DNA of 64,000 nt from NCBI GenBank assembly GCA_003388505.1, contig QQVO01000036.1, forward strand, positions 62,001 to 126,000, given 5' to 3'. The notes below the pieces were generated by a model, which did not search any database, was not told where the DNA came from, and saw only the letters and a list, made by a program, of their open reading frames with translations. Shown here one piece after another: positions 54,886 to 64,000 of the stretch; the stretch's first letter is position 1; each line of letters starts with the position of its first letter. The translations under genes and the position numbers were made by a program. The stretch comes from Planctomycetota bacterium. Lineage in GTDB: Bacteria > Planctomycetota > Planctomycetia > Planctomycetales > Planctomycetaceae.

Positions 54886-57800
54886 TCACCGAAGCCAGAC
54901 CTCCTCCGGCAGTCGCCACAGGAGAATGGGATTAGGAACGTCCTCGTTCGTAGCCACGCTGTTTTGTGACTCGTCAACCTTCCTTCCGCTGGCCGCAAAT
55001 CGTCCATCAGGAGTAATGTCGAGGCAACCTCCGCCGAGAAGACTCGGCACACGCGCCGGTAACTTCGCTTCCCATGTGACACTTCCGGTGTCGGCTGAAC
55101 GAACCTGCAGGATTGTTTGCCCTTCCCCTGCATTCAGTGAGACGAGGTTGCGTCCATCCGGGGCAAACACTACTGCGCCGCCTCCCCATACCCGATAGGT
55201 CTGATGCTGCAATTCGCCAAACAGGTCAAATTGCATCAGCTGCCAACTCTCGTTCGCCACGAGCACGACCGCCTCTCCATCCGGTCGTAGTCCGAGTGTA
55301 TAGGAGACCGTTCCTCCGTCGTCCGATCTCGACCGAAACGTCCGGACTTCCCGCCGCGTTGGAAGGTGGAACAGCTTCGTTGCGTACTCGGTGGACGGGC
55401 TGCTGACGAGCAAATGCTCCCCGTCAGGCAAGAACCGCATCGCTCCAGCCCAACCTTCTCCGTCCGCGCCGGGGAGTTCAAACTCGAGTCGGGGATTCGT
55501 CGACGCGGAGACGTCATAGATTTTCACACCTCCGCCGTCGATGTGCACCGCAAGACGATTCCCGTCCGGTGAGAACGCACTGGCATAGGCGACATTCCCG
55601 GCCCACGTCACTCGGCTTTCCATGTCACCCGTCTCTAGCTCGTAGAGTCTTGCTTCCCCTGCACACGAGACCGCCACGCGTTGCCGTCGGTTATCAATCG
55701 AAAGTCCATAGGCAATCCCGACGTCGATCACATGTTGCGCCGTCCCCGTTTCCAGATCCCAGATTCGCAGCGATTGGTCAACGGCGCTCACCGTTGCTAG
55801 GGTCTTTCCATCAGCTGCGAACTCTAGTCCGGTGATTATTCCAGTGTGACCATCGAGCGTTTGCAAAAACCCAGGCGGCCCATCCGGCAGCGGAGACTTC
55901 GCGAACGAGCCCACCGCTGGCGCGGTCGTCGAGTGCGCCGCAGCGGCTCTCTCGGAGAGACGCCAGACCCGAACCACAGGAATCTGTTCCTCGCTTTCGG
56001 GGACCGCGGTGACTCCCGACACGGCCAGAATTCGACTGTCCCACGAGAACGACACTCTCTCGACGGAGAATCCATCCAGCGAAAGGTTCTTGAGCCAGCG
56101 GTACGTCGTTCCGTCAAACAGCGCCAGGCCGTCGTTTGTGTTAGTCGCTGCGGCGATCAATGCGGAATCTGGCGACCACGCCAACGCCCTGCGATTGCCG
56201 CCGCTGCCGATGATCTGAGCATCCTGCCATGTTCTTGAATTGACTGCATAGAGCGGTTGACCCTCCCAGCAAGCGATGACGGCGCGATCATCAGCCCCCA
56301 TCACGATGCTCCCGCCGCCGGGTATGCCGTCGCATCGCTTCACATCGACCTCGCCCGACTCGGCCGCGATCTCGTAGATCGATCGTCCGCCGTCGTGCGC
56401 AGCAACGACGATCAACTTCCGGGAGTCGGTCGAGAACACGACTTGCAAATGCCACGGGTCGCCGAACTCAATCGGTATCTCCGCAACCAGTCGGCCGGTT
56501 TCCAGTTCCCAGACAGCGGCGCGACCCCGCATCATCACCGCGCCGATCCACCGCCCATCTGGGGACACGCACAAGGCTGTTGCCTGGCCCGACGAATCGG
56601 AAAACTCGAGGCGCTGTTTCATTTCCCACGGCTCGGTCGTCCAGACCTCAACCCGTCCGAACGCCCTGGCCAGCAAGACGTATCGGCCGTCGCTCGTGAT
56701 ATCCATGTCGTAGGCTCCCCCCCTGTCGGAAAGAAGCACGGGCGAGGTCGTCTCGTCGTCATCGAACTTGTAGATGTACTTCCCCATCGACAGATACGTC
56801 TCTCCCCCCTTTCCGGTCAGGACCAATCCGTTGGCGTGGAGGTCTTGACCTTCCAGCTCCGTAAACTCATAGGACAGGATCTCCTCGAATTCGAACTCGG
56901 TTGCGGACACCGGCTGCGAAGCGTTTGCCCCGGAGGAGCCGGGTGCGCCGCCCTCCGCAACGTGATCTGCCGGATTCTGAGTGCGGTTCGCCAGTCGCAT
57001 TCCGCTTGCGTCAATGTGCAAGACCGGCCTGGTTCCCTTCTCGATCGTGAAAGTCTGCGGATTGTGGACGATCGTCTCGCCGTTCCTCACCGAGAAACCG
57101 TGCTCTCCCAGTGTCACTGTGACCTCCATGCCCGGACCGGTGAGGGTGTACTCGTCATCGTCGACCGAGAGTGACAGTTCACCTTTCTGGTCCTCCAGCC
57201 AGGCGTCGTTGACTTCAACGGCCAGCGTGCGGCTGCCGTGCTTGAGGTAGAACACGACTCCCAGATACACCGTGCCGCAAACCAGGCAGAAGCATAAAGC
57301 GCCGATCAGCAGCCAGTTGTCCCAGATGCTGCCGCTCGAACGCGGCTGGAGCTGTCCGCTCTTGTCAAACTGGTACCTGCGCTGCTTCAAGGGGACTTTG
57401 GCATACGTCCTGATCGCCTCCCGAAGCTCCCTGGCGAACTTGTTGCCCGGTTTGAGTTGGAGAAACCGCTTCAGGTTGTCTTCAATCCCCTCCAGTTGAC
57501 GGGTGCGGACGCATTCCTGCAAAGAGAGGAGCAAAAGGTCGGACTCCTCTTGGAGTTCTACGGCGTTGTCGAGCGTCTTCTGGACTTCCGCGCTACGGAA
57601 GTCCGGGGGAATTTCCTGTAAAAGCTGAGCCGCCTGGCCGTAGTCCTTTCGGACTATTGATTGCTTCGCGGTGGCCAGGAGGGACGGAACGGCGGCCTGA
57701 AGCCGCCGGGGAAGTTTCTTGACTTCAGGGAGCTGGTTGCGAGCCCAGGCCACATAGTTCGCTGTTCCCGGTCCTTGCAATTTCTGCATCTTTTCCATGG

Positions 57801-59010
57801 CCGCCACGGCCTGCGCATGCTGCCCCCGTTGAATCAACCCTACCACGTTGGACTTCATCGATTCGCACTTTGCGATGTTCTCCGCCTCCTTTGACTGTCG
57901 TACGCGATCTCCAGTTGAGTTGTTCTTGAGCCATGATTGAAGAAAATCCACCACCTCTTTCATCGACTGAGGCCGCCGCTCCGGCTCCTTTTCAAGCATT
58001 CGCAAACAGAAATCGGCCAACTCCGGATCGACGTCGGGACGAAGTTTCTTAAGCGGTCGCGGCCGCTTCTGAAGCGCTTGATTCAGGACGACCAGCGTCG
58101 ACCCCTGAAATGGAATGCGCCCCGTCAGAAGTTCGTAGAACACGACCCCCAGTGCATAGACGTCGCTGTGCGGACCGATCCGGTCGAGTTCGGATCGGAT
58201 TTGTTCGGGGGCCATATAAGCCGGAGTTCCCAGAAGGGCCCCCTCATGCGTCAACTTCGATTCCTGCCGGTCTTGAATCCGCGCCAGTCCGAAGTCCGTC
58301 ACGCACGGCGTGTCACCGTTCTGCATCAGCACGTTTCCGGATTTGACGTCTCGGTGCAGGATGCCGCGCTCGTGCGCCGCCTGCAGGCCCGATGCAATCC
58401 CCTTCACAATTTCCACGATTCTGCGTTCGTCGTGATAGGCAGCAGTGCCCACGCACTGTGAGAGCGGCGGGCCGTCGATGTACTCCATCGAAATGAACGG
58501 AGTTCCGTTGACGTCGCCCGCGTCATAGATGCGGCAGAGGTTCGGATGTTCCAACCGGGCTGCCGCCTGCGCCTCCCGCGTGAACCGTTTCAGGAACTCC
58601 TCGCCGTCCGTTCCTGTCCCCTTGGGAATCTTGAGCGCGACCCGACGATCAAGCTGCGTGTCTTCCGCCAGATAGACGGTGCCCATGGCGCCCTTTCCCA
58701 GTTGGTGAACGAGCCAATACCGTCCGAATTGCGATTGCGGCGCAAAGTCGGTCCGTTGAGCGCCGCCGGGACGCATTGTCTCGGCCGACCGGAGATCTCC
58801 GGAGTCGACGTCGGCACGGTCCGAGAGCGCATCCAGCAGTCCCTCTCCCTCCGCATACGACCTCAAGCCGTCTGCGAGATCGGGATACGACGCGCAGAAG
58901 GATTCAATGTCGACCGACTCGCCGGCTTCGCGCCGCCGAATGTACTCGGCCAGCACTCCGTGCAGAGTGAACTCCCCCGCGAAACCATGCCGCCCATCTT
59001 CATGACTCAT
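54886..59010 (-). CDS. Ser/Thr protein kinase fused to a WD40 propeller, membrane-spanning
   Basis: A 1374-residue Hanks-type kinase. Kinase residues: glycine loop (LGKGAMGTVYLAEDTQ), K127 (VALKIP), catalytic D221 (HRDVKSGNVLM), D239 (DFGLAR), GTPAYMAPEQ activation end. The N-terminal 90 residues contain YIRRREAGESVDIESFCASY, common in planctomycete kinases. A helical spacer (about 360-560) and one membrane helix (NWLLIGALCFCLVCGTVYLG, about residue 570) follow. The outer part is a WD40-type propeller from about 720 to the end (FSDSSGQATALCVSPDGRWI, GHTGIITGLEFAADGKTLAT, LRIWDLETG). It should carry signals across the membrane. It starts 8 bases after the sigma-factor gene stop. Confidence 0.93.
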   Translation of the reverse strand: MSHEDGRHGFAGEFTLHGVLAEYIRRREAGESVDIESFCASYPDLADGLRSYAEGEGLLDALSDRADVDSGDLRSAETMRPGGAQRTDFAPQSQFGRYWLVHQLGKGAMGTVYLAEDTQLDRRVALKIPKGTGTDGEEFLKRFTREAQAAARLEHPNLCRIYDAGDVNGTPFISMEYIDGPPLSQCVGTAAYHDERRIVEIVKGIASGLQAAHERGILHRDVKSGNVLMQNGDTPCVTDFGLARIQDRQESKLTHEGALLGTPAYMAPEQIRSELDRIGPHSDVYALGVVFYELLTGRIPFQGSTLVVLNQALQKRPRPLKKLRPDVDPELADFCLRMLEKEPERRPQSMKEVVDFLQSWLKNNSTGDRVRQSKEAENIAKCESMKSNVVGLIQRGQHAQAVAAMEKMQKLQGPGTANYVAWARNQLPEVKKLPRRLQAAVPSLLATAKQSIVRKDYGQAAQLLQEIPPDFRSAEVQKTLDNAVELQEESDLLLLSLQECVRTRQLEGIEDNLKRFLQLKPGNKFARELREAIRTYAKVPLKQRRYQFDKSGQLQPRSSGSIWDNWLLIGALCFCLVCGTVYLGVVFYLKHGSRTLAVEVNDAWLEDQKGELSLSVDDDEYTLTGPGMEVTVTLGEHGFSVRNGETIVHNPQTFTIEKGTRPVLHIDASGMRLANRTQNPADHVAEGGAPGSSGANASQPVSATEFEFEEILSYEFTELEGQDLHANGLVLTGKGGETYLSMGKYIYKFDDDETTSPVLLSDRGGAYDMDITSDGRYVLLARAFGRVEVWTTEPWEMKQRLEFSDSSGQATALCVSPDGRWIGAVMMRGRAAVWELETGRLVAEIPIEFGDPWHLQVVFSTDSRKLIVVAAHDGGRSIYEIAAESGEVDVKRCDGIPGGGSIVMGADDRAVIACWEGQPLYAVNSRTWQDAQIIGSGGNRRALAWSPDSALIAAATNTNDGLALFDGTTYRWLKNLSLDGFSVERVSFSWDSRILAVSGVTAVPESEEQIPVVRVWRLSERAAAAHSTTAPAVGSFAKSPLPDGPPGFLQTLDGHTGIITGLEFAADGKTLATVSAVDQSLRIWDLETGTAQHVIDVGIAYGLSIDNRRQRVAVSCAGEARLYELETGDMESRVTWAGNVAYASAFSPDGNRLAVHIDGGGVKIYDVSASTNPRLEFELPGADGEGWAGAMRFLPDGEHLLVSSPSTEYATKLFHLPTRREVRTFRSRSDDGGTVSYTLGLRPDGEAVVLVANESWQLMQFDLFGELQHQTYRVWGGGAVVFAPDGRNLVSLNAGEGQTILQVRSADTGSVTWEAKLPARVPSLLGGGCLDITPDGRFAASGRKVDESQNSVATNEDVPNPILLWRLPEEVWLR

Positions 59011-59018
59011 GGATGACC

Positions 59019-59630
59019 TCAAGCATCGGTAATTCCGTGTTGTTTCAGGATCGCTTTGAGTTCCTTCATTCCGCTGATCAGCATTCTTGCGACAGCGCTT
59101 TCTGATCTTCCGAGTTGCCGGGCGATCTCCGCCATCGTGAGGCCGTCCAGGTGTTTCATCCGCATGACAACCCGCCATTCGTCAGTCAATTGATCGATCG
59201 CTTCCCGCACGATGCGGTGGTGCTCACGACGCATCACTCGACGGCTGGGAGAAGTTTGCCGCCCGGGAGCCTGGCGGATTTCGTGGCTCGCGTCTTCCTC
59301 TCGATCGATGCTTCGCTTGGCAGTGAATTTCTCGCGTTGCAGCAATTCCTGAATGTCGTGCTCCAGAATCCGGCGAACCCACTGCACGAACTCAGCGCCC
59401 GACCGGCCTCGGAATTGAGGTATGTCCTCCAAAACCTGAATCAGCACCTTCTGCACCAGGTCGGAACCATCCGCGCGGACGCGGAGCTTCGGCCCCAGTT
59501 CCTGATCAATGATCGGTCGCAGTGAATCTCTGAGTTGCTGCAGCAACGCGCTACGGGCCGCTTCATCTCCCTCACGTGTATGCTGCAGCGGTCGATCGAA
59601 TTTCTCAAAACCGCTCTCATTGTTCGCCAT
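59019..59630 (-). CDS. ECF-like RNA polymerase sigma factor (kinase-linked)
   Basis: A 203-residue sigma factor from ATG 59630 with gggagtggag just upstream. Region 2-like part: ALLQQLRDSLRPIIDQELGP, DGSDLVQKVLIQVLEDIPQF, SGAEFVQWVRRILEHDIQEL. Region 4: AIDQLTDEWRVVMRMKHLDG, LTMAEIARQLGRSESAVARM. Planctomycetes have ECF groups encoded beside Ser/Thr kinases and thought to be controlled by them; here the kinase gene follows by 8 bases, so the pair is one operon. No anti-sigma factor gene is adjacent. Confidence 0.93.
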   Translation of the reverse strand: MANNESGFEKFDRPLQHTREGDEAARSALLQQLRDSLRPIIDQELGPKLRVRADGSDLVQKVLIQVLEDIPQFRGRSGAEFVQWVRRILEHDIQELLQREKFTAKRSIDREEDASHEIRQAPGRQTSPSRRVMRREHHRIVREAIDQLTDEWRVVMRMKHLDGLTMAEIARQLGRSESAVARMLISGMKELKAILKQHGITDA

Positions 59631-60644
59631 CTCCACTCCCGGCAATTCCTCAGGCAGAATCTCAGCACGATTCCAGCGGAGAAAGTCTCCGCAAATCGAC
59701 ATTTTTTGCGAATAGACGCAACTCATATTACAATAAAGAGTTGCACATGCCCGTACACATGCGCTGCCGGAGAAGTTTGCCTCGCCACGAGTCGATCGCA
59801 TGCCTCACGGCTGTGATCCGTGAGTTTTCTCCCAGAGATCGTCATAGGTCGGTTGCGCTTCCTCGGCGCACCTGCTCATACGGGTCTCTGAAATCGACGG
59901 ACATGATGTTTGCGCAACACAGAGTCGTGGCGGGTCGATGCAACTTTTTCGGATGGAGCGTTTCTCAGGAAAGCAAGAATACCACAGAATTTCCTGCAAA
60001 TTCGCGGTTCAGCGCACCCGATCATTCCCCCAGCGCAACTCTGCACGATTCACTGAGGAGCCCACCGCACGGACGACTCACACCCCGCATCGGCCGCCAA
60101 ACATGTGCGTCACCCGCTTCGACCCGCCCATCCTGCCCACACCCCGCGCACGAACTCGGCGAATCCCAAACACCGGCTCCCGCACGTCTTGGCACACGTT
60201 TTCCCAAAGAGTTAAAGACTTGCCCGAATCTCCCGGAAAACAACGCACCCAACCCTTTAACAACCCTCTCAAACCCCAAACAAGAACCGCCGCCACGCCC
60301 TCTCATCTTTGCGTCTTCGCGCCTTTGCATGCCGCCCCCGCCGGGTGCCACTGGCGTTCCGCCGGTGCCTTCCCAACTCCTGCCGATTGCTCGAAGCGAA
60401 ACCCTCCGGCGCACCGCCGCCCCCACAGGTAGAAGGCGCAAACAACAACGTTCATGTGGCCCGGACGGGTGGCACGACCCAGAACGGAATGCAATGGAGT
60501 GATGGGCGTGGCTGGATGCCGCGTTGACGCGCATTGGCAACACGTAACTCGCCGCGAAATTACGCGAGGCACCACGCCCAGCTCGAACGCTCCATGAAAA
60601 CCGAAACCGAACAGCGACAACCAGGCAACTGAGGCCACCAGCCC
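59631..60644. other. Intergenic, about 1 kb, no gene seen
   Basis: Between the sigma factor start and the FliF stop. Short minus-strand frames (for example 59805-59999) lack good start signals. A repeat related to the tgccactggc family lies near 60346. The sigma/kinase operon promoter should be at the left end. Confidence 0.4.
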
Positions 60645-62633
60645 TCAAGCCAGATCCAGCGCCAGGCCGCTCAGGATCTCCCGCTGCGCCGTCTCGACGT
60701 CGTGCAGCCGCATCGGCCGCCGGGTGCGCAGTGCCTGCTGCAGTCGCTTTGAATCGTCGCGGGGGAGCGTCTCGCTGAGATGTTCCTGGACGGCGTCCGA
60801 TGCCCCGACCAGCGCGGCCGCCCAGGTGTCGCTGGAGGTCTGCTGAAACAGCCGGCACAGCCGGGCCGGGTCGCAACGCAGGATCTCTTCGATGTCGACC
60901 GGCGCATCATCGGGCACTTCGGAGGAACGCAGCCGGAATCCGGCCAGTCCAATCGCTGGCTCAGCCGCATGGGAGACGTCGGAAATCGGCTGATTCGCCT
61001 GACCGGCCACCGGCGACCGGCTCTCCGCCGCATGCGGAACGGCAGTCGCGCGGCCTTCATTCGCATGATCCGCGATCTCGAAGCGCGTCTCGTGAATTGT
61101 CGTTGCCTCTTCGCTGCTTTCCTTGCCGGACGGCTCCTGCAGCAGCGAGGCGAGGGCCTCCGCCAGGCGGTCGGACGAAGCGCTCGCTGCGCCGCTCGCT
61201 CCGGCGTCCGAGGGTGTCGGCTCCGGTGCGGAGGATGCAGGCTGGGTCTGCTCGCCGTCAGCGGTTTGCTGAGGCAATGCCTCTTCCCCGCCGGCCGGCA
61301 GCGGTTTCGGTGGCGTCACTTCTCTGACCACCAGCCGCCGCGCCAACCAGTACGCCGACCACAGGCAGACTCCCAGAACGAGCGTCGCCATCACCCAGGC
61401 CGACCAGCGGTGCTGCTGCAACACGCCCGAGATCCAAGGCCATGCCGCGACCGGTTCGCTGACCGCAGCCACCGCCGCAGGTTGCGGTGGGTCGCGATAG
61501 GCCGCCACCTCCACGACGGGAGCAGAGGAAGCATCGAGGCGGCCGTCGAGCGCCCGCGTCACGCGCTGCTGCACGTCGCGCACGACCCGCTGTTCAACCT
61601 CCTGGCGTGCAGCGTGCAACTGATCTGCGGCGATCTGCCGCCCTGCGGTCTGTTGCCCCAGCAAGCCGTTGAAGTACGACTGCGGCACCGAGACCTGCAC
61701 GGACACTTCATGCCTCGCCACGGTCGGGGAAGCGACTCCCGGCTCAGACTCATCAAGGGGAGGCAACTCCATCCGGGCGTTCGGCGCAACGGCCGGCAGT
61801 TCCCAATCGTCGGGCGATCCATTGACCTCGGAAGATTCCGTGACAACCACCGCGACGCGAACGCCCGTGATGTGAGCCAGCGCATGTTCGACCCGCCCGC
61901 GACAGGCGGCCGTGAAGCGAGCCGCCGATTCCGAACCGCCGCTCCCGCCGGCCAGCGACTCATCACCGGAGTAGGTCACCATGCTCCGCATGTCCATCAC
62001 GGCCACGTCCGCCGGATCGAGATGGGCCTTACTACCCGCGACGGCCGTGCGGACGGCTTCCACCGTCTCGGGGCTCAGGAGATGTCCTTCAAGCGGCTTC
62101 AGATAGACGGTCGCCCGCACCTTGGGCGGCTTCCGCCAGCCGATGCGGGCTTCTTCGTCCCACACGATCTCGGCCGAGTCGATCCCCGGCAGTTCACCCA
62201 GCAGCTTGCTCAGCAGTTCGGCGCGGGCGATCTCCCCGGCGTCTTTCCGCTGTCGGCTGAGCGCAAACTGGCTGAGCGACGAATTCGCTTCACGCCAGGT
62301 GTCTCCCCAACTGTGCGGCCCGTCGGCTTCGTCGGCCGCGACCGCGTCGTACCGGTCCACGTCGGCTTCCGGCGCCAGCAAGCGGGAGCCGTCCACTTCG
62401 TACTCGGTCAGCCCGGCCGCATCGAGCTGGCTGGAGATTTCATCGATCTCCGAGGGAGGTAGCGATCGCCCACCCAGGGCGGGGACCATCTTCGACGAGG
62501 CCGGCCTGAGCAGCAGCCAGCAGAGCCAGCCACCGATCGCCGCCGCGCACAGGATCACGGTGCACCGTTGTGCAAACGGCATCGAACGATAAACGGCCAG
62601 AAGCTGATCGCTCGTGGCTCCGGAAACCTCCAT
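60645..62633 (-). CDS. fliF: Flagellar M-ring protein FliF with FliG C-terminal-like extension
   Basis: A 662-residue FliF. The order is: first membrane helix (CTVILCAAAIGGWLCWLLL), periplasmic ring-building parts (LPPSEIDEISSQLDAAGLTE, LLGELPGIDSAEIVWDEE, VRATVYLKPLEGHLLSPETV, KAHLDPADVAVMDM), a Pro/Ala-rich linker region, and a second helix (WVMATLVLGVCLWSAYWL). The cytoplasmic tail is about 220 residues, much longer than usual, and ends (about residues 580-662) in DIEEILRCDPARLCRLFQQT, WAAALVGASDAVQEHL, RPMRLHDVETAQREIL. That matches the FliG C-terminal pattern (ALKGA, GPVRLSDVE..Q..IL). Most charged torque residues are not kept. The upstream gene is a sigma-54-activator-like regulator. 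Confidence 0.85.
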   Translation of the reverse strand: MEVSGATSDQLLAVYRSMPFAQRCTVILCAAAIGGWLCWLLLRPASSKMVPALGGRSLPPSEIDEISSQLDAAGLTEYEVDGSRLLAPEADVDRYDAVAADEADGPHSWGDTWREANSSLSQFALSRQRKDAGEIARAELLSKLLGELPGIDSAEIVWDEEARIGWRKPPKVRATVYLKPLEGHLLSPETVEAVRTAVAGSKAHLDPADVAVMDMRSMVTYSGDESLAGGSGGSESAARFTAACRGRVEHALAHITGVRVAVVVTESSEVNGSPDDWELPAVAPNARMELPPLDESEPGVASPTVARHEVSVQVSVPQSYFNGLLGQQTAGRQIAADQLHAARQEVEQRVVRDVQQRVTRALDGRLDASSAPVVEVAAYRDPPQPAAVAAVSEPVAAWPWISGVLQQHRWSAWVMATLVLGVCLWSAYWLARRLVVREVTPPKPLPAGGEEALPQQTADGEQTQPASSAPEPTPSDAGASGAASASSDRLAEALASLLQEPSGKESSEEATTIHETRFEIADHANEGRATAVPHAAESRSPVAGQANQPISDVSHAAEPAIGLAGFRLRSSEVPDDAPVDIEEILRCDPARLCRLFQQTSSDTWAAALVGASDAVQEHLSETLPRDDSKRLQQALRTRRPMRLHDVETAQREILSGLALDLA

Positions 62634-62735: not shown

Positions 62736-64000
62736 TCACGCAGCCCGCGAGACGCGATTCGAGCCCGGCCCGCCGCGCGGCGGATAGCCGTACTCCCGCA
62801 GCTTGCCGGAGAGCGTCCTGAGTCCGATCTTCAGCGCCCGCGCGGTCAGTTCGCGGTTGCCGTTGAACCGGTTGAACGTCGCCTCGATGAGCTTCCGCTC
62901 CATTTCGCGGAGCGACAGGCCGACGTCGTCCGGGCTGATCTCGGACGGCGTTTCGAGCCAGGTCGTCACGATGTCGGAGGTGAGCACCGGATCGGTCGTC
63001 AGCGAACAGCCCCGCGCGATCACGTTCTCGAGTTCCCGCACATTGCCGGGCCAATGATGCGCCTGCAGCCGCTGCACGGCTTCGGCCGCGAGTTGCTTGG
63101 CGGGACGTCCCTCGCGGGCCGCGAAGTCGGCCAGAAAATGTTCGGCCATCGGAGCGATGTCGTCCGGCCGATCGCGAAGCGCGGGCACAGTCACGGTATG
63201 TCCTGTCAGACATTCGTAAAGCTGGTCGTCGAAACTGCCGTCGCGGGCCATGTCGTGCAAGGGGGCGTGCGTGGTGGCGATGATCTGCGGCGGAGACTCG
63301 ATTTGTTTCAGCGCCGCCGCCAGCCGCGCCTGCACCGAAAGCGCCAACGCATCGACGTCGTCGAGCAGCAGAGTCCCTTCGCTCGCGGCAGACAGGCGGC
63401 CGCGGCTTTCGTGACCTTCGCCGAACAGCGCGGCTTCGGCCGCCGACGCGGCCAGCACTTCGCAGCGGACCGCCATCAGCGGGGCGTGCTCGCCCTTGCG
63501 GATCGAGTGAATCGCCCGGGCGATGAACGTCGTCCCGCTGCCCGATTCGCCCTGCACGATCACCGGCCGGTCGTCTTCGGCGATTTCGCGAAGCTGCTCC
63601 CGCACCTTTTCAATGCCGTCGCTGTAGCCGATCAATTCGGGCCAGAGTCGCACGTCGCTTTGCTGCTTGAGTTGCTGATTCTCCGAGACCAGTTGCGAGC
63701 GGCCGACGGCTGCGAACAGGGCGCGGCCGATCCGCTCGGGAGTGTGGGGAGGTTCGAGCACTTCGGCGTTCAGTCCGACGAACTGGCCGCGCGGCGCCGT
63801 GATGGCCGGCAGCACGACAACCTGCGTCGAAAGGCCCGCTGCTTCGATCGCGTTTGCGACCATTTCGACGAATCCGGGCGACTCCGGTTCGTCGAGGATG
63901 CAGGCCGCCGGAGAGATGCCGGCCAACAGGTCGCACAGGCTGTCGGCCGACTCCGCCTGGGTGACATCGAAACCCTGGCGGCCGACCGCTTGCGCGATCT
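62736..64000 (-). CDS. NtrC/FlrC-like regulator with degenerate ATPase, 5' end cut by the window
   Basis: The frame is open from 63998 to a stop at 62736; the true start lies outside. An N-terminal receiver-like part (FDVTQAESADSLCDLLAGIS, ACILDEPESPGF) is followed by an AAA+ domain and a C-terminal Fis-type HTH (IEATFNRFNGNRELTARALK, GLRTLSGKLREYG). The AAA+ domain is altered: Walker A reads GESGSGTTF (lysine replaced by threonine, 63528-63551), Walker B reads LLLDDVDAL, and the GAFTGA loop is absent (LFGEGHESRGRLSAASEGT). The order of other blocks (RPDDIAPMAEHFLADFA, HHWPGNVRELENVI) is normal. It precedes fliF by about 100 bases on the same strand. Confidence 0.85.
   Translation of the reverse strand, partial: IAQAVGRQGFDVTQAESADSLCDLLAGISPAACILDEPESPGFVEMVANAIEAAGLSTQVVVLPAITAPRGQFVGLNAEVLEPPHTPERIGRALFAAVGRSQLVSENQQLKQQSDVRLWPELIGYSDGIEKVREQLREIAEDDRPVIVQGESGSGTTFIARAIHSIRKGEHAPLMAVRCEVLAASAAEAALFGEGHESRGRLSAASEGTLLLDDVDALALSVQARLAAALKQIESPPQIIATTHAPLHDMARDGSFDDQLYECLTGHTVTVPALRDRPDDIAPMAEHFLADFAAREGRPAKQLAAEAVQRLQAHHWPGNVRELENVIARGCSLTTDPVLTSDIVTTWLETPSEISPDDVGLSLREMERKLIEATFNRFNGNRELTARALKIGLRTLSGKLREYGYPPRGGPGSNRVSRAA

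Follow-up and report, generated by a model that had tools for sequence, protein, structure and literature searches.

What is left for an enhancer-binding protein to do once the residues for ATP hydrolysis and for contact with sigma-54 have disappeared from it? The question is raised by a gene next to fliF at the edge of a 64,000-nucleotide stretch of planctomycete DNA, which is termed here the window. The initial annotation of this stretch had proposed two roles for such a protein, namely a DNA-bound scaffold or repressor of flagellar genes and an inhibitor that co-assembles with an active partner. The reading favored here, to which a probability of about 0.6 is assigned, is that the protein sits on DNA and regulates sigma-70-type promoters (TKGACA-N17/18-TATCA), for which it would need neither ATP hydrolysis nor phosphorylation. 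A literature search, whose coverage left out most subscription journals, returned nothing on this planctomycete protein.

Domain Architecture and Lost Residues

The regulator frame (62736-63998, minus strand) is open at the window edge, and the genome sequence places the ATG start codon at window position 64088, the whole gene (L013:4736-6088, minus strand) encoding 450 aa. Pfam matches were obtained for Sigma54_activat (PF00158, 77 bits), AAA_lid_14 (75 bits), and HTH_8 (36 bits), and in the layout a receiver-like domain is followed by a long linker helix, then by the sigma-54-activator AAA+ domain and its lid, and finally by a Fis-type HTH. The retained HTH and the overall domain order noted in the initial annotation are thereby borne out. 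The structure model (mean pLDDT 90.7) contains the AAA fold and the linker helix, and the profile, the model, and the PDB matches all point to the presence of the AAA+ sigma-54 interaction domain fold. The same receiver-AAA+-Fis HTH order is found in FlrC of the Vibrio FlrB-FlrC two-component system, on which the AAA domain superposes with a TM of about 0.80-0.85 normalised by the target, while the top whole-length folds for the model are NtrX (5m7p) and NtrC1 (1ny5). The NtrX structures hold nucleotide, whereas the window protein is devoid of the usual residues for it. The fliF gene does adjoin the regulator, as had been annotated, and begins directly downstream after a gap of 102 bp, from which co-transcription of the two genes appears probable. 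Its product is fused to a FliG C-terminal domain, and this fliF::FliG_C gene is the sole YscJ/FliF-family gene found in the genome of the window.

Table 1. Positions of the regulator gene, its remnant motifs, and the associated genes (window coordinates unless a contig of the same genome is named)
Feature	Position	Strand	Basis or remark
Degenerate FlrC-type regulator gene	62736..64088 (part in window 62736..64000)	-	450 aa
Receiver-like domain, residues 31-130 in window, acidic pair and Lys gone	63699..63998	-	alignment to 11 intact receivers; model
Walker A remnant GESGSGTT, residues 180-187, Lys to Thr	63528..63551	-	alignment
Place of absent GAFTGA loop, residues 221-232, LFGEGHESRGRL	63393..63428	-	alignment
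Walker B remnant LLLDD, residues 240-244, Glu to Asp	63357..63371	-	alignment
Lost arginine fingers FDDQLYECL, residues 286-294	63207..63233	-	alignment
Fis-type HTH, residues 392-435	62784..62915	-	HTH_8; 71% mean identity to intact sister proteins
Clade-specific invariant tail PPRGGPGSN, residues 436-444	62757..62783	-	81/81 degenerate
C-terminal RAA, possible ClpXP-type degron	62739..62747	-	AA end in 73/81 relatives
fliF fused to FliG C-terminal domain	60645..62633	-	domain matches
Flagellar-type export gene groups in own genome	C12:74380-79114 and C2:185624-188577

The lesions first noticed in the protein, a Walker A without its Lys (GESGSGTT), a Walker B ending in DD (LLLDD), and a deleted GAFTGA sigma-54 contact loop, are all confirmed, and no GAFTGA stands between ALFG and GTLLLDD. 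A second surface loop is shorter as well, the sensor I Asn and the acidic pair and Lys of the receiver are lost, and the arginine-finger stretch reads FDDQLYECL in place of the intact FREDLYYRL, with Asp and Cys at the finger positions, so that both fingers are gone.

Relatives were collected from 61 family genomes and from a collection of genomes for which the best 80 of 167 loci were kept, and the sample is enriched in degenerate forms because the degenerate protein served as the query; weaker matches in the family genomes (about 1e-40 to 1e-46), most of which fell in long frames, were set aside as other paralogues. After removal of 15 duplicates from 125 proteins, 110 were aligned, comprising 82 degenerate proteins, 13 intact ones (with records mostly labelled Pirellulales), and 15 paralogues from the genome of the window itself. 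In this comparison across planctomycete relatives, which the initial annotation had proposed, the losses proved to be fixed: GAFTGA and arginine finger 2 are each retained in 0/82 degenerate proteins versus 13/13 intact sister proteins. The Walker B Glu survives in 3/82 and arginine finger 1 in 56/82, each against 13/13 in the intact set. The Walker A Lys is kept in 13/81 (13/13 intact), which means that its loss is not universal, and ATP binding may persist in some of these Lys-keeping relatives. Wide variation was seen at the positions of Walker A, Walker B, and sensor I. The phosphorylation residues are present in the 11 intact receivers that were aligned, and the acidic pair and Lys occur together in no degenerate receiver. 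Neither ATP hydrolysis nor sigma-54 remodelling is thus to be expected of the protein, a prediction of the initial annotation that the residues extend to its planctomycete relatives, and the label "sigma-54-dependent regulator" would be wrong for the whole degenerate clade. A frameshift or assembly error behind the losses, and chance or sequencing error in general, were rejected because losses of the same kind are common to 82 distinct relatives from many assemblies.

Phylogeny, Selection, and the Conserved C-Terminal Region

The tree was built from 82 of the 110 rows, with 28 near-copies left out. The degenerate set forms one clade (support 100, stem 0.65), which is sister to the intact clade at 96, and both are joined at 99. 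Arginine finger 2 and the PPRGGPGSN tail each require one change on this tree, GAFTGA requires two, of which one falls on an unrelated paralogue from the window's own genome, and the Walker Lys requires three. From these counts, the sigma-54 contact and the trans-acting finger would have been lost first and the Lys later and unevenly.

The dN/dS ratio was estimated from 16 pairs, 15 degenerate and one intact. Values of 0.007-0.064 were obtained in 13 of the 15 degenerate pairs; the 11 close ones gave 0.007-0.034, with an HTH dN of 0 in 10 of them. Higher ratios were obtained for two distant degenerate pairs (0.31 and 0.41) and for the sole intact pair (0.32), and these are probably due to saturated dS. 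The low ratios of the close pairs indicate that the degenerate protein is in use, and a pseudogene was rejected on account of this strong purifying selection.

Compared with the intact set, the window protein averages 18% identity over the receiver, 36% over the AAA domain, and 71% over the HTH; its HTH identity to the 15 paralogues from its own genome averages 32%. Right after the HTH, the segment PPRGGPGSN was found in 81/81 degenerate proteins, 0/13 intact proteins, and 0/15 paralogues; the C-terminal counts were made on 81 proteins, L109 being cut by its contig. The degenerate proteins end in AA in 73/81 cases and in VA in the other 8, and AA ends occur in 102 of the 801 predicted genes of the loci. 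An AA terminus resembles degrons of the ClpXP type, for instance the one in CtrA, and the uniform AA/VA C-termini suggest a conserved proteolytic control.

Probable Dismantling of the Sigma-54 Circuit

The intact loci share the order TPR, FlgN-like, histidine kinase, regulator, flgB, flgC, fliE, fliF, fliG, fliH, where fliH was named by position only. The place before flgB-flgC-fliE-fliF-fliG is ancestral and common to the FlrC-like intact homologue and the degenerate regulator, and the latter differs in being without the kinase, the phosphosite, the ATPase residues, GAFTGA, and the -24/-12 promoter. A histidine kinase immediately precedes the regulator in all 10 intact loci with enough contig (3 of 13 were too short), and it is absent in 17/17 degenerate loci with the same operon, where the gaps are at most 340 bp. 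In three intact loci (L120, L123, and L124), the kinase frame and the open frame of the regulator overlap widely, so that overlapping genes or fusions are possible. Elements of the -24/-12 type were scanned within 500 bp after the regulator at a threshold of at least 10/12 consensus positions, with GG and GC required; such an element precedes flgB in 10/13 intact loci versus 1/20 canonical degenerate loci, and it was found in 0/4 loci with a fused fliF, the window's locus included. In the Fuerstiella-, Schlesneria-, and Planctomicrobium/Thalassoglobus-labelled sets, the regulator lies outside the flagellar operon and is nonetheless conserved. Sigma-54 promoters at motility genes in Planctomycetia are described in PMC12316311, with which the intact planctomycete set agrees.

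Candidate Operator and Sigma-70-Type Promoters

In the intact loci, CGGCA-N5-TGCCG-like dyads are located between the regulator and flgB, upstream of the -24/-12 element, with a matrix match in 9/13 (the dyad was first spotted by eye and the matrix was trained partly on sites later counted). The exact dyad with its 5-bp spacer occurs at 37 sites in the loci (7 intact, 30 degenerate), and other spacers from 0 to 11 give 3-9 sites each (intact 0-3, degenerate 2-6). The dyad is a probable operator common to the intact and degenerate regulators.

In the Fuerstiella set, the dyad lies before the regulator gene itself, where a TTGAC[ACT]-N18-TATCA promoter is present in 29/29 loci (0.18 expected from shuffles). 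The dyad centre is found 100 bp (21 loci) or 109-110 bp (7 loci) upstream of the start of the -35 box in 28 of these 29 loci, two distances that differ by about one helical turn. A sigma-70-type promoter was likewise detected in 24/32 other orphan loci (0.1 expected), and before the regulator in 1/20 canonical-operon loci, as expected if the gene is operon-internal there; among 8 canonical-operon members checked, one has a dyad-promoter pair upstream of the operon. Operator-like sequence also approaches the promoter core: one such dyad in L023 sits between the -35 and -10 boxes, and in Schlesneria-type loci TTGACACATTCTGCCG fuses the -35 box with half-sites.

More independent tests of the dyad were provided by the flhA regions and by a scan of 170 genomes. 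Upstream of flhA, 40 regions yielded 11 matrix matches versus 2 in the reversed sequence; 8 of the 11, from 7 genomes, lie 249-497 bp before the FlhA match, and an eighth genome (G039) has a dyad match at 44 bp, dyads near flhA thus being confined to 8 of the genomes examined. A TGGACA-N17/18-TATCAC-like promoter was found in 15/39 flhA regions, compared with 0.16 expected; the accompanying dyads lie at 100, 70, and 69 bp, and a further, weak dyad lies at 180. The composite pattern dyad-N80-110-TKGACA-N17/18-TATCA, scanned over 170 whole genomes, gave 18 sites against 0 for the reversed pattern, and neither the gap (92) nor the spacer (18) varies among the 18. Seventeen of them precede the regulator gene and, coming from related genomes of few genera, are not 17 independent events, whereas the one before flhA is separate. 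A second composite pattern with a gap of 50-80 was found in 0 of 170 genomes. The strict pattern misses real-looking cases, since the two flhA sites at 69-70 bp escape it, one with TACATC for TATCA and the other with a mismatched arm. The dyad centres, 69-110 bp upstream of the -35 box, suggest helical phasing with it (R=0.76, P=0.013 at 10.5 bp, for n=7 chosen distances).

Proposed Mode of Action and Alternatives

What the sequences support comprises the fixed losses, the purifying selection, the conserved HTH, and the conserved dyad at a fixed distance from sigma-70-type promoters, both before the regulator's own gene and, in some genomes, before flhA; a promoter switch is visible in the degenerate clade as compared with its sister clade. 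The ancestor would have been an FlrC-type, phosphorylation-switched sigma-54 activator of the flgBC-fliEFG operon, and on the stem of one planctomycete clade the kinase, the phosphosite, the ATPase machinery, the GAFTGA loop, and the -24/-12 promoter would have been lost. The DNA-binding domain probably kept its dyad target CGGCA-N5-TGCCG and gained the extra C-terminal segment. At its own promoter, the protein would repress by way of operator-like halves that overlie the -35 box or lie close to it, together with the distal dyad in helical phase, and the combination of a strong -35 box, promoter half-sites, and a phased distal dyad suggests looping. Autorepression is probably the likelier sign there, in a mode that may be likened to TyrR or GalR, and the effect on flhA could be activation or repression. 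The reading is weakened by the missing dyad and composite site in the window genome, by the small number of genomes with dyads near flhA, by the single dyad-promoter pair among the 8 canonical-operon members, and by the Walker Lys kept in some relatives. The clade would in this way offer a natural experiment in the dismantling of a sigma-54 circuit, in which kinase, phosphosite, motor, sigma contact, and promoter were lost and the DNA reader and its probable operator were kept. It would likewise be a testable case of an AAA+ pseudo-ATPase acting as a transcription factor, and it supplies a predicted operator for planctomycete flagellar control.

The main rival accepts the same sigma-70-type rewiring and makes the protein an activator, which would contact RNA polymerase from the dyad in the manner reported for Rhodobacter capsulatus NtrC. 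The seemingly phased dyad positions (69-110 bp upstream of the -35 box, n=7) and the weaker TGGACA -35 box of the flhA promoters are in its favor, as is the activation of sigma-70 promoters by GAFTGA-less NtrC proteins reported in PMC10274813. The -35 box of the own promoter is, however, mostly full-consensus TTGACA, and operator-like halves overlap the -35 box or sit in the spacer in some clades (L023, L109, L086, L088, and L089), which leaves activation a serious competitor and still somewhat doubtful.

Precedents for enhancer-binding proteins without GAFTGA are known. TyrR, DhaR, HupR, VpsR, and YplP work, or are thought to work, with sigma-70 according to PMC3162934, and the NtrC proteins of Rhodobacter and Caulobacter are described as GAFTGA-less and sigma-70-dependent in PMC10274813. 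Proteins of the TyrR/DhaR/HupR/NtrC/VpsR kind, as these sources present them, have likewise lost the sigma-54 contact loop and kept the HTH, the move to sigma-70 being only probable for the planctomycete protein. The NtrC examples keep the kinase, a working receiver, and Walker A, with the Walker residues being required in Caulobacter (PMC10274813). The window protein, in contrast, has no Walker Lys, which 13/81 of its relatives keep. Judged from residues and gene order against the cases in these papers, the degenerate clade exceeds the known GAFTGA-less proteins in its losses, which extend clade-wide to Walker A, the receiver, the arginine fingers, and the kinase.

Alternatively, the AAA domain might serve as a switch for another ligand, a nucleotide or c-di-GMP, as in VpsR or FleQ. 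Both proteins are among the closest sequences and folds, the AAA fold is conserved, and some relatives (13/81) keep the Walker Lys; the wide variation in Walker A, in Walker B, and at sensor I and the absence of the FleQ motif LFRS from the equivalent position of the window protein make this reading unlikely. In FleQ, LFRS is the c-di-GMP motif.

Much less probable still is an inhibitory subunit that joins and poisons the rings of an intact enhancer-binding protein, the second role put forward in the initial annotation. The modelled AAA fold and linker helix would permit it, and the genome of the window contains RpoN and many intact sigma-54 activators. Against this stand the loss of arginine finger 2 in 82/82 and the average HTH identity of 32% for the 15 own-genome paralogues, compared with 71% for the intact sister proteins. 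The intact FlrC-like paralogue for which a search had been suggested did not emerge either, no intact sister copy being seen in the window's genome.

The Regulator and the Export Genes of the Window Genome

In the genome of the window, the regulator promoter TTGACA-N18-TATCAC lies at window 64260-64290 (minus strand), just past the window edge, and the nearest relatives have a promoter of the same type in which operator-like halves abut the -35 box. Upstream of the window's regulator gene no dyad of score at least 9 was found, the halves having diverged beyond recognition, and none of score at least 10 was found upstream of flhA; the composite site is absent from a whole-genome scan. Exact dyads number 37 in this genome versus 60 for the reversed pattern, and there is thus no enrichment. 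Twelve of the exact sites were inspected; three of them proved to be intergenic, no phased promoter accompanied them, and an own-genome regulon defined by the dyad was dropped on both grounds. The neighbours of the three intergenic dyads encode a VTT protein, a ketoacyl synthase III and an MMPL protein, and a carbon-nitrogen hydrolase/MotA-ExbB pair.

Two groups of flagellar-type export genes were located (Table 1), one with FlhA, an FlhF-like GTPase, and a FliA-like sigma factor, and the other with FliP, FliR, and a short FlhB. No rod/hook-family match, no flagellin, and no FliG besides the fusion were found in this genome, and the organism is for this reason probably without a flagellum; the assembly, with an estimated completeness of 98.76%, might lack a flagellar cluster. 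The set could represent an export system of flagellar descent in a cell that has no flagellum, and the FliF::FliG_C system may be what the regulator serves in this organism. In three other family genomes (G028, G036, and G039), a fusion-type match coexists with a separate FliG and with flagellin. The first role suggested in the initial annotation is consequently upheld in part: a DNA-bound scaffold or repressor fits best, with the HTH and the probable operator conserved and the ATPase not, while flagellar genes as its targets are doubtful here, where rod/hook genes, flagellin, and a separate FliG are missing.

A more ambitious scheme for the whole clade can be put forward tentatively, as something short of an even chance. 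A sigma-54 activator would have become an ATP- and phosphorylation-free sigma-70 regulator that keeps the "enhancer" geometry: held at a dyad some 100 bp upstream that is helically phased with the -35 box, it would loop to a promoter half-site (TTGACA-N5-TGCCG) and thereby control flagellar export genes as well as its own gene. In the window lineage, it would have outlived the flagellum and would serve a rod-less, hook-less FliF::FliG_C export system. That the protein is instead a decaying relic of a flagellar regulator, as the missing rod/hook genes, flagellin, and separate FliG and the diverged operator of the window genome might suggest, is the least probable reading of all, given the selection on the 11 close pairs of relatives (dN/dS 0.007-0.034, HTH dN 0 in 10) and the promoter and dyad conserved in relatives.

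Three further genes were noted in passing. A second GAFTGA-less enhancer-binding protein, with Walker A and receiver intact, is encoded on contig C10 of the same genome (L016:1916-3250, minus strand), and a protein on contig C2 (L256:2175-3485, minus strand) matches the sigma-54 activator domain over its later part only, at profile positions 60-167. Within the window, a 1430-aa protein (54886-59801, minus strand) looks by eye like a Ser/Thr kinase whose C-terminal half is rich in repeats, and it is encoded beside an ECF-type sigma factor.
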